Of a DNA stretch of 41,094 nucleotides, positions 8,795 to 37,095 are shown in pieces; position 1 is the stretch's first letter; each line of letters begins with the position of its first letter. This DNA is from a virus, in IMG/VR virus record IMGVR_UViG_3300004807_000046, positions 1 to 41,094 of that record; one strand, given 5' to 3'. A program made the position numbers and the translations under genes. Under the pieces are notes generated by a model. It saw only the letters and a program-made list of their open reading frames with translations, had not been told where the DNA came from and searched no databases.

Positions 8795-9166
8795 TCAAAA
8801 AGTTCCCCCATCAATATTACCATTCGTTAACTGAGCAGAATTATTTGCTAAATAATATGCTGTATTGGCTTCAGTTATAGCGTTGTTAGCCAAAATCAAT
8901 GCAGTATTTGCTTCCGACAATGCTGAGTTGGCTGTACCACTTACTCCGCTAGCCAATGAATATGCAGTGTTGGCTTCAGCCAAAGCGGAAGTAGCAAGAC
9001 CATAGACTGAATTGGCATAAGTGTATGCTACATTTGCTTCTTGAGAAGCTGCATTGGCTGTTGCACCAATCACAGTTATTTCTGTTGCTAAGTTGGCTGA
9101 ACCAACAAAAGTGGTTGTACCCCTAACAGAAATATTTTGATTTGGATTTACTGTAAAGACTGCCAT
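8795..9166 (-). CDS. Small Ala-heptad fiber-like protein ending DGGTF
   Basis: 123 residues. A beta N-terminus of ~30 residues (FTVNPNQNISVRGTTTFVGS) is followed by almost uninterrupted Ala heptads (ANAASQEANVAYTYANSVYG, then ALAEANTAYSLA) at ~35-110. It ends NGNIDGGTF, like two other proteins nearby. The ATG overlaps the stop of the upstream gene by one base (TAATG), indicating coupled translation. It looks like a free-standing coiled-coil rod, perhaps linking a fiber to the baseplate; that is inference. No family is recognised. Confidence 0.8.
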   Translation of the reverse strand: MAVFTVNPNQNISVRGTTTFVGSANLATEITVIGATANAASQEANVAYTYANSVYGLATSALAEANTAYSLASGVSGTANSALSEANTALILANNAITEANTAYYLANNSAQLTNGNIDGGTF

Positions 9167-9531
9167 TATACCTCTGATCCGTATGATGAAGATACACCAG
9201 TAACTCCAGGATTAACAAAAACTTGGCCCTCTACCACTCTTGTGATTGTATTACTTGAATCTTTGATGGTGATATCGTATACCAATTTACCTGCGGGAAC
9301 ATTAGCAGAATTTGCAGCAGATAAACTTAATTGTACAATTCCACCATTAGCATCTACAATTGAGGTTGTAAAATTAATAAAAACGTTACTGGAGTAATAA
9401 GATTTTTTGGCCTGTGCAGCAACAGTGAACCCTGTCAAATTATAACCATTACCATAAAGGTCGGTCAATGTGGTCTGAGAATTGAATGTTGAACCTTGGT
9501 CAAGGTACAAATCTGCGTAGGCTGCTGGCAT
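9166..9531 (-). CDS. Small beta-sandwich virion protein (121 aa)
   Basis: The sequence (AYADLYLDQGSTFNSQTTLT, then NLTGFTVAAQAKKSYYSSN, then VPAGKLVYDITIKDS) has the alternating pattern of an Ig-like or BppU-like N-terminal domain common in small phage structural proteins. No catalytic residue is apparent. The start has AGGA 7 nt upstream. The preceding 70-bp gap holds a late-promoter motif embedded in a hairpin that covers this ribosome site, so regulation is likely at both transcription and translation. The stop overlaps the next start. Probably a fiber-attachment or decoration protein; the specific role is unknown. Confidence 0.78.
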   Translation of the reverse strand: MPAAYADLYLDQGSTFNSQTTLTDLYGNGYNLTGFTVAAQAKKSYYSSNVFINFTTSIVDANGGIVQLSLSAANSANVPAGKLVYDITIKDSSNTITRVVEGQVFVNPGVTGVSSSYGSEV

Positions 9532-9535
9532 GATA

Positions 9536-9564
9536 ATATCCTATAGGTGTATACTACAGGATAT
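9536..9564 (-). promoter_or_regulatory. Hairpin covering the ribosome site of the 121-aa gene
   Basis: On the minus strand, ATATCCTGTAG (9564-9554) pairs with CTATAGGATAT (9546-9536) around a 7-base loop. This gives 11 RNA pairs including one G-U. The second arm contains the AGGA ribosome site. A transcript begun at the adjacent late promoter (near 9556) would lack most of the first arm and leave the site open; read-through RNA would close it. Confidence 0.6.
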
Positions 9565-9569
9565 TTATG
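9562..9569 (-). promoter_or_regulatory. Candidate late promoter for the 121-aa gene
   Basis: The minus strand reads CATAAATA, ending 31 nt before the ATG at 9531. It overlaps the first arm of the ribosome-site hairpin. Predicted start of transcription is near 9556. Confidence 0.55.
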
Positions 9570-9601
9570 CCTTTATTAACCAGAAGTATACCTGAGTGTA
9601 C

Positions 9602-12600
9602 TCATTTATTATTTCCTTTGAGTACATCTATCTCTGCTTTGAGTTCTTTAATGGCCGCAAATGCAAGAGCACACATTTTTTCGTAATCTACTGCAAGAAT
9701 TCCGTCATCTCTCAATCTTACCGCTAGTGGGAATACTGATTGAACGTCTTGTGCCACAACACCAAAGTCTTGTTTACGTACATAGTATCCGTCTTCACCA
9801 CCACGTGCCTGAATGACTTCATCTTTCCAGTCAAATGTTTTACCACCAATTGTTGTGACTATATCAAGTGCATTTGAAATGTCTTGAATATTTTCTTTAA
9901 GACTTATGTCTGAAGAATAATATGCAGTAATATTATTGGCCGCACGAATCTCACCAGATGCTCCAGATGCACCGGTGCCTACGCCAAATGAACCAAATTG
10001 AACACTACTACTTGTTCCAAAATTACTAGAAATGGTGTTTGCCGCAGAAAAAGCACCATTAGCCTGCGTAAATGCTGAACCTGCATAAGAACTTGCATTG
10101 TTGGCCGCAGTAAATGCTGAATTTGCATATGAACTGGCTGCAGTTGCATTTGTGGTTGCAGTATTAGCCTGATTGTATGCTGAATTGGCATATGAACTGG
10201 CTGCAGCTGCATTGGTTGTAGCCGTATTAGCCTGATTGTATGCTGAACCAGCATATGAATTGGCTGCAGCTGCGTTGGTTGTAGCCGTATTTGCTTGTGT
10301 GTAAGCTGAATTAGCGTATGCACCAGCACTGTTAGCCGCAGTAAATGCTGAATTTGCATATGAGGCCGCAGAAGCAATATTCGTATTCTGTGTTGCATCT
10401 ATAGGATTTTGTACAGTATTGTTGGCATAGTATGTCACCAACTTACTTGTTAAACCATCAATTGCTAATTGAATTGTATTAGCAGTAGATGAAATATTAC
10501 TATTAACTGTAAATGCAATACTGTTCGCATAATTGGAAGCCCAATAGTAACTTCCTGAACCACCAGTTGTTAAAACATATCCAAAAGTTGCTCCTGTTGG
10601 TAAAATGTTAGTTAATGCACCACCAGATGTTGTTGCACCGGTACCGCCAGATGTGATTGGCAACGCTGTGCTTAATGTTAGGCCATTAAATGTTGGAGAT
10701 GCTGATGTTCTCAGGTCTTGTGGTGTATTAACATACAGTGTGTTAACTTGTCCAGATACAACAACACCATTGTTACTAGAAAATGTTACTGCACCAGAAC
10801 TGGCTGTTGCTGTGCCTGTAGTACCAAAGAATGTATTGGTTGAGGTATTTGCTCTAGAATATGCTGCATTTGCCTGAGAGAATACTGCAAGTATATTTGA
10901 AGATATATTTGTATTCAGAGTTGATACGTTTGAAGATATATTTGTATTCAGAGTTGATACGTTTGAAGATATATTTGTATTCAGAGTTGATACGTTTGAT
11001 GTCAAATAATTCAATAGTGTATTTGCAACTGCTGATGCGGCAACTGTTGATGTACTTGTAGATATCAAACTATTGCTAATCAAATTAGCAGTCATAATCT
11101 GAGAGTAGTTTGTACCGTTGTTTACATCAAGTATATCCCAATATTTTGAACCTTCATTCCAACGAATTGATGCATTTGCACCAGAAGTTCCTCTATTTAC
11201 ATTTAATGAAGCATTTTGACCTATTGTCGCATTTGCATTTAATACAAAAGTGTTACTATTGTAAACTGTAGAACCATTAATAACAAAGTTACCACCAATA
11301 GATAATTGGTTTGAAACACTTAAATTATTAATAAAAGCTGTTGCATTATTGGCGAATAATGTTGAAGTAACATTTACTGTTGGTGTAGTAACACTAGTAT
11401 TTGCTACAACGAAATTTGAGTAAGATGTTCCGGTTACAGAAATTGCGGCAGTATTGATACCAGAATTTGCTTGTGTAAAATTAACATAATCTGTTCCAGT
11501 AACCGACATCGATGCAGCATTAACAACTGAATTGGCTTGTAATACATTAACGAAACCTGTTCCTGTTGCAGAAAAAGTTGCTGTATTAACTGAAGTATTA
11601 GCCTGTACAGCATTCAGATAACCAGTAGTTGTGACACTTAATGTAGATGTGTTAACTAGTGTATTTGCTTGAACTGCATTTAAGTAACCAGTAGTTGTAA
11701 CACTTAATGTAGATGTATTAACTAGTGTATTTGCTTGAACTGCATTCAGATAACCAGTAGTTGTAACACTTACAGTACCAGTATTGATACTTGTATTTGC
11801 TTGTAATAAATTAGTAAATGTTGTACCTGTGACACTTAATGTAGATGTATTAACTGAAGTATTTGCTTGTAATAAATTAGTAAATGTTGTACCTGTGACA
11901 CTTAATGTAGATGTATTAACTGAAGTATTAGCCTGTACAGCATTCAGATAACCAGTAGTTGTGACACTTAATGTAGATGTATTAACTAGTGTATTTGCTT
12001 GTAATAAATTAGTAAATGTTGTACCTGTAACACTTATAGTACTAGTATTGACACTTGTATTGGCCTGAACAATATTCAGATAACCATTAGTTGTAACACT
12101 TAATGATGCGGTATTGATATTGGTGTTAGCCTGAATAATTGGCACATATAAATTTGTTGCACCAATAATTGTATTCGAAAACTGTGCGGCACCTGTAACA
12201 AATATAGTATTAGAAATGCTGGTGTTTCCAGATACAGAGAGTGTACTACTTAGTGATGTGGCACCAGTAACACCTAGTGTTCCACCGACTGTTTCATTAC
12301 TTCCAATTGTTAATGTTCCAGATACGGTTGCATTATTTGCAACAGAAAGACCTGTACCAGAACCGTATGCGGAAATTTGTCCATTTGCAAAAAGACTTAA
12401 TGCTGTGTTGGTGAAGTTAACTGTACCACCAACTCTAAGAGTGTTTTGAATGTATGCGGAAGAGCCAGTGCCTTGAACCTGGAATGCACCAGCAACAATA
12501 GCAGCAGTATTAACCTGTAGACCAAGAGAACCATCACCTAAAAATAATGTTCCAGATGGTTTTGTAAAATTGTTGGCCGCAAGGTCGTTATTTTGTTGTA

Positions 12601-12688
12601 GTAATCCGTTAGTCGAAACCACCCAATCAGAGAATGTGTTGGCGTAACTTAAAACCGGAAATACTTGTGCTTGAGAATAATTAGCCAT
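9602..12688 (-). CDS. Long tail fiber with C-terminal S74 self-cleaving chaperone
   Basis: 1028 residues. Residues ~1-180 are beta-rich. About twelve 22-residue repeats (QANTSVNTSTLSVTG-type) fill ~182-446. Three 11-residue repeats (SSNVSTLNTNI) follow near ~565-600, and Ala heptads occupy ~758-887. Residues ~910-1028 are the Peptidase_S74 / endosialidase-type intramolecular chaperone: SSDISLKENI, then GVVAQDVQSVFPLAV and VDYEKMCALAFAAIKEL with a terminal helix. Ser926 and Lys931 have the five-residue spacing of the endosialidase catalytic dyad. Known family behaviour: the domain trimerises the fiber and then cuts itself off. A NATAAATA motif lies 30 nt before the ATG. First fiber gene after the DUF4815/65-aa pair. 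Confidence 0.93.
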   Translation of the reverse strand: MANYSQAQVFPVLSYANTFSDWVVSTNGLLQQNNDLAANNFTKPSGTLFLGDGSLGLQVNTAAIVAGAFQVQGTGSSAYIQNTLRVGGTVNFTNTALSLFANGQISAYGSGTGLSVANNATVSGTLTIGSNETVGGTLGVTGATSLSSTLSVSGNTSISNTIFVTGAAQFSNTIIGATNLYVPIIQANTNINTASLSVTTNGYLNIVQANTSVNTSTISVTGTTFTNLLQANTLVNTSTLSVTTTGYLNAVQANTSVNTSTLSVTGTTFTNLLQANTSVNTSTLSVTGTTFTNLLQANTSINTGTVSVTTTGYLNAVQANTLVNTSTLSVTTTGYLNAVQANTLVNTSTLSVTTTGYLNAVQANTSVNTATFSATGTGFVNVLQANSVVNAASMSVTGTDYVNFTQANSGINTAAISVTGTSYSNFVVANTSVTTPTVNVTSTLFANNATAFINNLSVSNQLSIGGNFVINGSTVYNSNTFVLNANATIGQNASLNVNRGTSGANASIRWNEGSKYWDILDVNNGTNYSQIMTANLISNSLISTSTSTVAASAVANTLLNYLTSNVSTLNTNISSNVSTLNTNISSNVSTLNTNISSNILAVFSQANAAYSRANTSTNTFFGTTGTATASSGAVTFSSNNGVVVSGQVNTLYVNTPQDLRTSASPTFNGLTLSTALPITSGGTGATTSGGALTNILPTGATFGYVLTTGGSGSYYWASNYANSIAFTVNSNISSTANTIQLAIDGLTSKLVTYYANNTVQNPIDATQNTNIASAASYANSAFTAANSAGAYANSAYTQANTATTNAAAANSYAGSAYNQANTATTNAAAASSYANSAYNQANTATTNATAASSYANSAFTAANNASSYAGSAFTQANGAFSAANTISSNFGTSSSVQFGSFGVGTGASGASGEIRAANNITAYYSSDISLKENIQDISNALDIVTTIGGKTFDWKDEVIQARGGEDGYYVRKQDFGVVAQDVQSVFPLAVRLRDDGILAVDYEKMCALAFAAIKELKAEIDVLKGNNK
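10896..10994. repeat. Three perfect 33-bp tandem repeats
   Basis: Units at 10896-10928, 10929-10961 and 10962-10994 are identical. Each encodes one SSNVSTLNTNI unit of the 1028-residue fiber. Copy-number change would add or remove 11 residues in frame. Confidence 0.95.
11350..12145. repeat. ~66-bp imperfect tandem repeat array in the fiber shaft
   Basis: About twelve units encode 22-residue repeats of the form (V/L)QANTxVNTSTLSVTxTxxxN(A/L). Two alternating subtypes end in TTTGYLNA or TGTTFTNL. Central units are nearly identical in DNA and the edge units are diverged. Confidence 0.88.
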
Positions 12689-12716: not shown

Positions 12717-12914
12717 CTATTTATTCAACAACGCCTGAAGCATTTTCTTTATCTCACCCACATCGGACTTCAAAGAATTTAATTCTTCTTCCATCTGTTT
12801 CTTCTTTCTATATTCAACTAAGGCTGCATAATTGGTATTTAATACAGCCTTACTTTCCATATCTCTCACTAAGTGTGGGTGGTCTTTGACTTTTGCTATT
12901 TTCATATTCATCAT
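12717..12914 (-). CDS. Small conserved coiled-coil protein (65 aa)
   Basis: Begins MMNMKIAKVKDHPHLVRDME, and residues ~35-63 form a coiled coil (EYRKKKQMEEELNSLKSDVG, then EIKKMLQAL). The ATG at 12914 overlaps the DUF4815 stop by one base (TAATG). An in-frame ATG at 12905 is the alternative start. Comparable small proteins sit beside structural genes in T4-like marine phages, but I know no function. Position suggests a partner or chaperone of the DUF4815 protein or of the following fiber. The late-promoter motif for the next gene overlaps its stop codon. Confidence 0.75.
   Translation of the reverse strand: MMNMKIAKVKDHPHLVRDMESKAVLNTNYAALVEYRKKKQMEEELNSLKSDVGEIKKMLQALLNK
12718..12725 (-). 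promoter_or_regulatory. Candidate late promoter for the 1028-aa fiber
   Basis: The minus strand reads AATAAATA, ending 30 nt before the ATG at 12688. It overlaps the last codons of the 65-residue gene. An AAAGG ribosome site follows. Confidence 0.5.
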
Positions 12915-36913: not shown

Positions 36914-36915
36914 CG

Positions 36916-37095
36916 ATGCGGCATGACAACTTGAGAAACTATTATACAACTAATTTCTCACTCATGCAGCATCACAAGTACAGTTTGATTGAACTTGAGA
37001 ATATGATTCCTTGGGAAAGGGACATTTACGTTGCTATGCTTATACAATACATTGAACAAGAAAACGAAAAGATTAAGCAAAAGCAAAGTAGATGA
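36916..37095 (+). CDS. 51: Small gp51-like baseplate hub assembly protein (59 aa)
   Basis: The ATG at 36916 gives MRHDNLRNYYTTNFSLMQHH, then KYSLIELENMIPWERDIYVA and MLIQYIEQENEKIKQKQSR. The segment KYSLIELENMIPWERDIYVAML is the typical core of short gp51-like proteins that follow gp26 in T4-like phages, and it resembles a helical assembly factor. The stop overlaps the next ATG (ATGA at 37092-37095). An internal Met at residue 17 is an alternative start. The gp51 name rests on position and this core. Confidence 0.8.
   Translation: MRHDNLRNYYTTNFSLMQHHKYSLIELENMIPWERDIYVAMLIQYIEQENEKIKQKQSR

Follow-up and report, generated by a model that had tools for sequence, protein, structure and literature searches.

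A leader switch has been described for a few genes of T4 and T4-like phages, mainly lysis, capsid, recombination, and homing-endonuclease genes. In T4 genes e, soc, and 49, a hairpin conceals the ribosome-binding site (RBS), and the 5′ strand of this hairpin contains the late promoter (PMC3014915). The leaders of I-TevI, I-TevII, I-TevIII, segB, and Aeh1 mobE are also controlled by hairpins, and I-TevI represses its own promoter through DNA binding (PMC2988022). In T4 late promoters, the box sits approximately one helical turn ahead of the start (PMC2988020), and NATAAATA has been published as the late motif of marine T4-like cyanophages (PMC2984593).

Here, we analyzed a site on the minus strand of a 41,094-bp IMG/VR virus record (the whole record is referred to as the window), where a predicted late promoter, a hairpin, and the RBS of a gene for a 121-amino-acid protein coincide (Table 1). 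The site shares with T4 e, soc, and 49 a promoter located inside an RBS-hiding hairpin and a late RNA that would lack the 5′ strand, and its late promoter, stem, RBS, and AUG have the same geometry as those in the I-TevI, I-TevII, I-TevIII, segB, and mobE leaders. However, the three T4 genes lie behind early or middle genes, whereas the window gene lies behind late tail genes and its product, a probable tail-fibre adaptor, is unlike theirs; the lock in the window is predicted from sequence and folding. The segB, mobE, and I-Tev leaders control homing endonucleases, and autorepression by DNA binding is a feature of I-TevI. The PeSL cassettes of T4-type phages combine an early promoter with a terminator-like stem. 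Like the window site, they are small intergenic units of a promoter and a stem–loop at module borders, but the promoter in the window is of the late type and its stem lies over the RBS.

Among earlier reports, a pelagimyophage survey was unable to predict late promoters (PMC7029224), and the Melnitz paper, with its list of 15 late promoters, does not contain the word hairpin (PMC9004378). Our search of the literature on these phage groups found no description of the lock, which is weak evidence, as most subscription journals lay outside the search.

Table 1. Features of the promoter–hairpin site and its surroundings (window coordinates)
Feature	Position	Strand	Basis or remark
Putatively controlled gene, 121 amino acids, most likely an LtfC-like tail-fibre adaptor	9166..9531	−	phrog_1084, phrog_3304; T5 p132 profile match
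Outer stem, 3′ side, AUGCC, start codon included	9527..9531	−	MFE fold
Inner stem, 3′ arm, holding the Shine–Dalgarno sequence	9535..9546	−	Sequence and MFE fold
Shine–Dalgarno AGGA, 7 nt 5′ of the ATG at 9531	9539..9542	−	Sequence
Predicted transcript start, approximately 6 nt past the box	9554..9557	−	T4 late-promoter spacing
Inner stem, 5′ arm, 12 pairs, overlapping the promoter	9554..9565	−	MFE fold
Late promoter box CATAAATA	9562..9569	−	Sequence; runs directly into the stem
Outer stem, 5′ side, GGCAU	9567..9571	−	MFE fold; conserved in L003 and L004
Border of the exchanged module	9571..9580	−	L003 and L004 homology begins at 9580
Upstream tail-fibre gene, source of read-through RNA	9602..12688	−	Own probable late promoter at 12718..12724
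Probable late promoter ATAAATA ahead of the upstream fibre gene, lacking a strong hairpin	12718..12724	−	

The putatively controlled gene and its neighbors

The 121-amino-acid protein matched phrog_1084 and phrog_3304 (E = 9e-18 for the latter), and its family profile matched the T5 L-shaped tail-fibre protein p132 (PDB 7qg9; E = 2.8e-6); this likeness to the T5 LtfC/p132 collar protein concerns the protein only. The Pfam LtfC match of the family was below the cut-off, and homologues were found in 120 phage records (E ≤ 1e-3). These matches suggest that the protein is most likely a tail-fibre adaptor. The window carries a T4-like baseplate and tail-fibre module, and the upstream neighbors of the gene are late tail genes. 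Because the upstream fibre gene has a probable late promoter of its own, most of the read-through RNA should also be late. The stop of this gene lies approximately 30 nt short of the start of the hairpin, so a ribosome terminating there probably would not melt the hairpin. The same gene also contains many near-identical repeats of approximately 22 residues (NTSTLSVTTTGYLNAVQANTLV; window positions 11300–12150, minus strand).

A predicted hairpin spanning the promoter, the ribosome-binding site, and the start codon

The minus strand reads GTTAATAAAGGCATAAATATCCTGTAGTATACACCTATAGGATATTATCATGCC across the site. A first-pass annotation had claimed that CATAAATA leads into an 11-pair stem, the second arm of which holds the AGGA of the gene starting with the ATG at 9531. 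All 11 pairs are present between ATATCCTGTAG (9564–9554) and CTATAGGATAT (9546–9536), comprising 10 Watson–Crick pairs and one G–U pair (9557/9543), and the AGGA lies within the 3′ arm, as described. The minimum free energy (MFE) structure adds a 12th pair (9565–9535) and gives the inner stem a 7-nt loop. It also contains a 5-pair outer stem that ties up the start codon and had been overlooked in the annotation. The MFE of the 101-nt stretch was −34.0 kcal/mol, compared with −18.6 ± 3.2 kcal/mol for shuffled sequences (z = −4.8; 0 of 200 shuffles). In this predicted fold of the read-through RNA, the Shine–Dalgarno sequence and the AUG are both paired, in agreement with the claim that such RNA folds over the RBS, and the late box overlaps the 5′ arm. 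The leader had no family match in Rfam.

The promoter motif and a long stem are each not rare alone: stems of at least 11 pairs occur at approximately 12 places on the two strands of the window, and CATAAATA was found five times, against 5.1 expected. Enrichment of CATAAATA was accordingly dropped as evidence. The rare thing is the coincidence of the promoter and the stem with each other and with the RBS, and we therefore measured the cost of opening positions −18 to +2 in read-through RNA versus RNA starting 6 nt after ATAAATA. In the read-through RNA, opening the start at 9531 cost 18.8 kcal/mol, more than at any other of the window's 27 gene starts (runner-up, 14.3; median, approximately 5). 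RNAs begun in the computation at 9558–9554 all gave approximately 4 kcal/mol at the same site, making the exact position of the predicted start immaterial; the fold was gone in each, consistent with the earlier proposal that RNA started near 9556 would lose most of the first arm. The start-dependent release at 9531 was 13.8 kcal/mol; among the late-promoter genes of the window, no other release was large (next, 4.4 kcal/mol). Under a strict null in which the promoter and the next five bases were fixed, p was 0.02–0.06 for the three close loci of the window's clade. This null is conservative because the fixed bases make up most of the 5′ arm.

As a positive control, the first 100 kb of T4 were scanned blindly for ATAAATA sites paired with an ORF. 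The highest releases were those of gene 49 (13.9 kcal/mol), e (13.8 and 12.9), segB (12.8), and I-TevII (12.6), close to the 13.8 kcal/mol of the window. T4 soc scored 1.8 kcal/mol in the same scan, which indicates that the release measure is not complete. The analogy that the first-pass annotation had drawn with e, soc, and 49 thus holds for the release of e and 49, but soc is weak and the upstream genes in the window are late.

Two other features of the window concern its promoters and gene starts. ATAAATA occurs 11 times, always on the minus strand. The T4 late consensus TATAAATA was found 0 times in the window, against 4.75 expected from shuffles, and ATAAATA preceded by C or A occurred on the coding strand only; the late sigma of this phage may prefer a different first base. 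After 9531, the gene start with the highest occlusion is that at 37092 on the plus strand, which is preceded by a 178-nt gap (36914–37092) containing no ATAAATA.

Conservation and re-pairing among related loci

Three IMG/VR contigs encode the 121-amino-acid protein at 88–100% identity, and GGCATAAATATCCTRTAGTATACAYCTATAGGATATTATCATGCC is kept in all three. Among these contigs, one stem position changes from G–U to A–U and one loop base varies; because this is the only stem change available, the window's own clade offers no test of covariation. The DNA homology of L003 and L004 to the window starts just outside the cassette (Table 1), and upstream of this point, L003 carries an unrelated fibre gene and a 217-amino-acid gene that replace the upstream gene of the window. 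This suggests that the promoter–hairpin stays with the downstream gene, at the border of a module. Near-identical DNA was absent from the annotated phage collection.

A further 160 LtfC-type loci were gathered by protein similarity, not by leader sequence. The C48C1-like phages carry ATAAATA within the 5′ arm, and their arm sequences vary from one sublineage to another, with pairs such as CCCTAAG...CTTAGGG, CTGAGTG...CACTCAG, CCTTAAAC...GTTTAAGG, and CCTCAAGATG...CATCTTGGGG. The 3′ arms were misaligned when 30 C48C1-like leaders were analyzed with MAFFT/RNAalifold, which therefore yielded no structure, and the arms were judged by per-sequence folding with arm swaps and in a gap-free subset. 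A leader's own arms bound each other at a mean of −25.2 kcal/mol, compared with −15.5 kcal/mol after swapping, and 91% of the swaps were weaker. In the gap-free subset of ten leaders, 91% of cells paired, against at most 58% when the arms were slid, and changes on both sides occurred at two pairs. RNAalifold found eight pairs with zero both-side changes in the Melnitz-like leaders, which show little covariation; this group was left out of the covariation evidence for lack of any both-side change.

When counted by locus, with relatives pooled, a release of at least 8 kcal/mol was found in 94% of the C48C1-like, 30% of the Melnitz-like, and 12% of the other loci, and in 0 of 16 other late-promoter genes within the LtfC-type loci. 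On the same pooled counting, strong occlusion was seen at 45 of the 96 loci that have a late promoter and at 0 of the 14 that lack one, which fits a lock that is tolerated only when the promoter lies inside it. In a tree of the LtfC proteins, which was built from 118 columns and contains many unresolved forks, the starred branches force at least four changes of hairpin label. A single origin of the lock at the LtfC-type gene is therefore not supported.

The nearest divergent relatives (LtfC 42–58% identical) were found by a scan with the neighboring fibre gene. Hairpins around the promoter recur in this group, and their grip on the RBS is variable. In L186, the RBS lies in the second arm and a CTAAATA box in the loop (release, 6.9 kcal/mol). 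L191–L199 have a short anti-Shine–Dalgarno sequence in the five bases between the box and the start (2–4.5 kcal/mol). L190 has a GC-rich hairpin with the promoter in the loop and the RBS free (−0.3 kcal/mol), and L202 has GGCATAAATATCCAATAGGATAA with the RBS further downstream (3.1 kcal/mol). The median release was 3.2 kcal/mol, the RBS was sometimes outside the hairpin, and the arm-swap test was near random (57%). These varied designs, with their low median release and near-random swaps, indicate that the lock is not deeply conserved at the LtfC-type gene. The pairing of the arms, which had been proposed as a check in relatives, was thus kept in the close contigs and re-paired in the C48C1-like phages, but was weak or rearranged at 42–58% identity.

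Several individual loci show related arrangements. At one C48C1-like locus (L036:1440–1503), the late promoter and the hairpin have been lost together, which fits the assumption that a lock without a promoter is not tolerated. In Melnitz-2 (MZ577096; L181:6310–6370, gene at 76363), CCCTTGTTCGTCTTATAAATAGATGCACAAGGGATTTTTT lies ahead of the first baseplate gene behind a tRNA and places a late promoter within a hairpin over the RBS; its release of 16.3 kcal/mol was the highest among the Melnitz-2 stretches scanned. At a different gene downstream of LtfC, AACTCTTTATAAATA...AAGGAGTT (L159:1830–1880 and L168:1830–1880) forms an additional hairpin that covers both a late promoter and an RBS.

A probable translational lock and its alternatives

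We consider it probable that the site is a T4-type translational lock around a late promoter, mainly serving to insulate the adaptor gene from read-through. The design is partly supported, by the folding, the T4 positive control, the retention in close relatives, and the re-pairing in homologous loci. RNA entering from upstream would carry the entire inverted repeat and fold, so that the Shine–Dalgarno sequence and AUG of the adaptor gene would be paired and ribosomes kept off. RNA polymerase with a gp55-type late sigma (10 of 13 related records contain a gene of this family) would start at CATAAATA, inside the 5′ arm, and the resulting short RNA, without this arm, would escape the lock and be translated. 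The dose of the adaptor would then depend on its own promoter, regardless of the tail-fibre gene upstream, and any early read-through would be blocked as well. Insulation is proposed as the main purpose because the upstream genes in the window are late; we think that it is the simplest purpose here, and the anatomy is also compatible with the early/late timing seen in T4. The sequences compared do not support deep conservation of this exact lock.

The inverted repeat might instead be a DNA operator, with a dimeric regulator binding over the late promoter and the RNA fold being incidental. The repeat does overlap the promoter, and autorepression by I-TevI at such a place is known (PMC2988022), but the arms of the C48C1-like phages change wholesale and use G–U pairs and bulges, which suits RNA pairing and not the binding site of one protein. 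Furthermore, where the pairing ends on the 3′ side follows the position of the RBS and, in the window, that of the AUG. We regard an operator as quite improbable. The location of the hairpin between two genes would also suit a terminator or attenuator that halts upstream RNA, with the late promoter restarting transcription behind it. TTTT follows some C48C1-like hairpins and TTTTTT follows a Melnitz-2 hairpin at another gene, whereas the stem in the window is followed by TATCATG, without a T run, and the outer stem extends into the coding sequence. An intrinsic terminator at the window site was rejected after a terminator scan was empty there, and this reading as a whole is very improbable.

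Hairpins at 5′ ends commonly influence the stability of phage mRNA, and the structure could act as a nuclease target or give the adaptor transcript a more stable 5′ end. However, RNA from the predicted start would lack the hairpin, so protection or processing could act on read-through RNA only, and why strong occlusion occurs only with the promoter inside would be left unexplained; such a role seems very unlikely. We judge it just as unlikely that a promoter-like octamer fell into a moderately stable hairpin by chance. The numbers of such hairpins and of CATAAATA in the window and the values under the strict null speak for coincidence, and the box itself supplies ATAT, so part of the arm comes free. 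Against chance, the site is more occluded than any other gene start in the window and has an outer stem that also pairs the AUG; the cassette was retained while the upstream gene was replaced; and, in another lineage, the C48C1-like phages, re-pairing has recurred at this gene.

Similar cassettes in other phages

The mechanism of the switch is known from T4; its presence here appears to reveal an unexpectedly wide spread, with different sequences, in uncultured lake and ocean phages. It is possible, although we hold this only tentatively, that T4-related lake and ocean phages possess a general and portable control unit, the hairpin-locked late promoter, with several origins at the LtfC-type gene. 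This reading would cover the C48C1-like phages, OM43 phages, and large freshwater phages and, if true, late tail-fibre genes could be inserted behind any gene, whether early or late, and translated only from their own promoter. The recurrence of the lock before tail-fibre genes, with re-paired arms, makes its selective role testable by comparison and suggests a simple way in which host-range genes could change transcription units without being mis-expressed. For phages that resist cultivation, it could also help in predicting when genes are expressed.

The pattern ATAAATATCCT...AGGATAT...ATG matched at least 119 viral stretches; in a collection of this size, some chance matches are to be expected. 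Among the matches listed, many were GATAAATATCCTATATAGAGGATATT ahead of a tail-fibre gene starting with MAVVQISRIQIRRG in freshwater phages. Most of the 80 loci chosen by their MAVVQISRIQIRRG-type protein retain the GATAAATATCCTATATAGAGGATATT cassette (median release, 6.3 kcal/mol), and the loci with this type of gene include contigs of 345–356 kb. In L245, the cassette-led tail-fibre gene sits between a nuclease-like gene and two reductase-like genes, which we read from their sequences as nrdA and nrdB; by analogy, this neighborhood of early-type genes resembles those in which the switch operates in T4. In addition, genes for proteins of approximately 62 amino acids (MTDISKYKSLAVDHACYDKIDKMTK) follow ATATAAATATCCTATAT...GAAAGGATAT, with a longer loop, in L223, L230, L233, L240, L243, L263, and similar loci, which probably represent another phage group with a similar leader.
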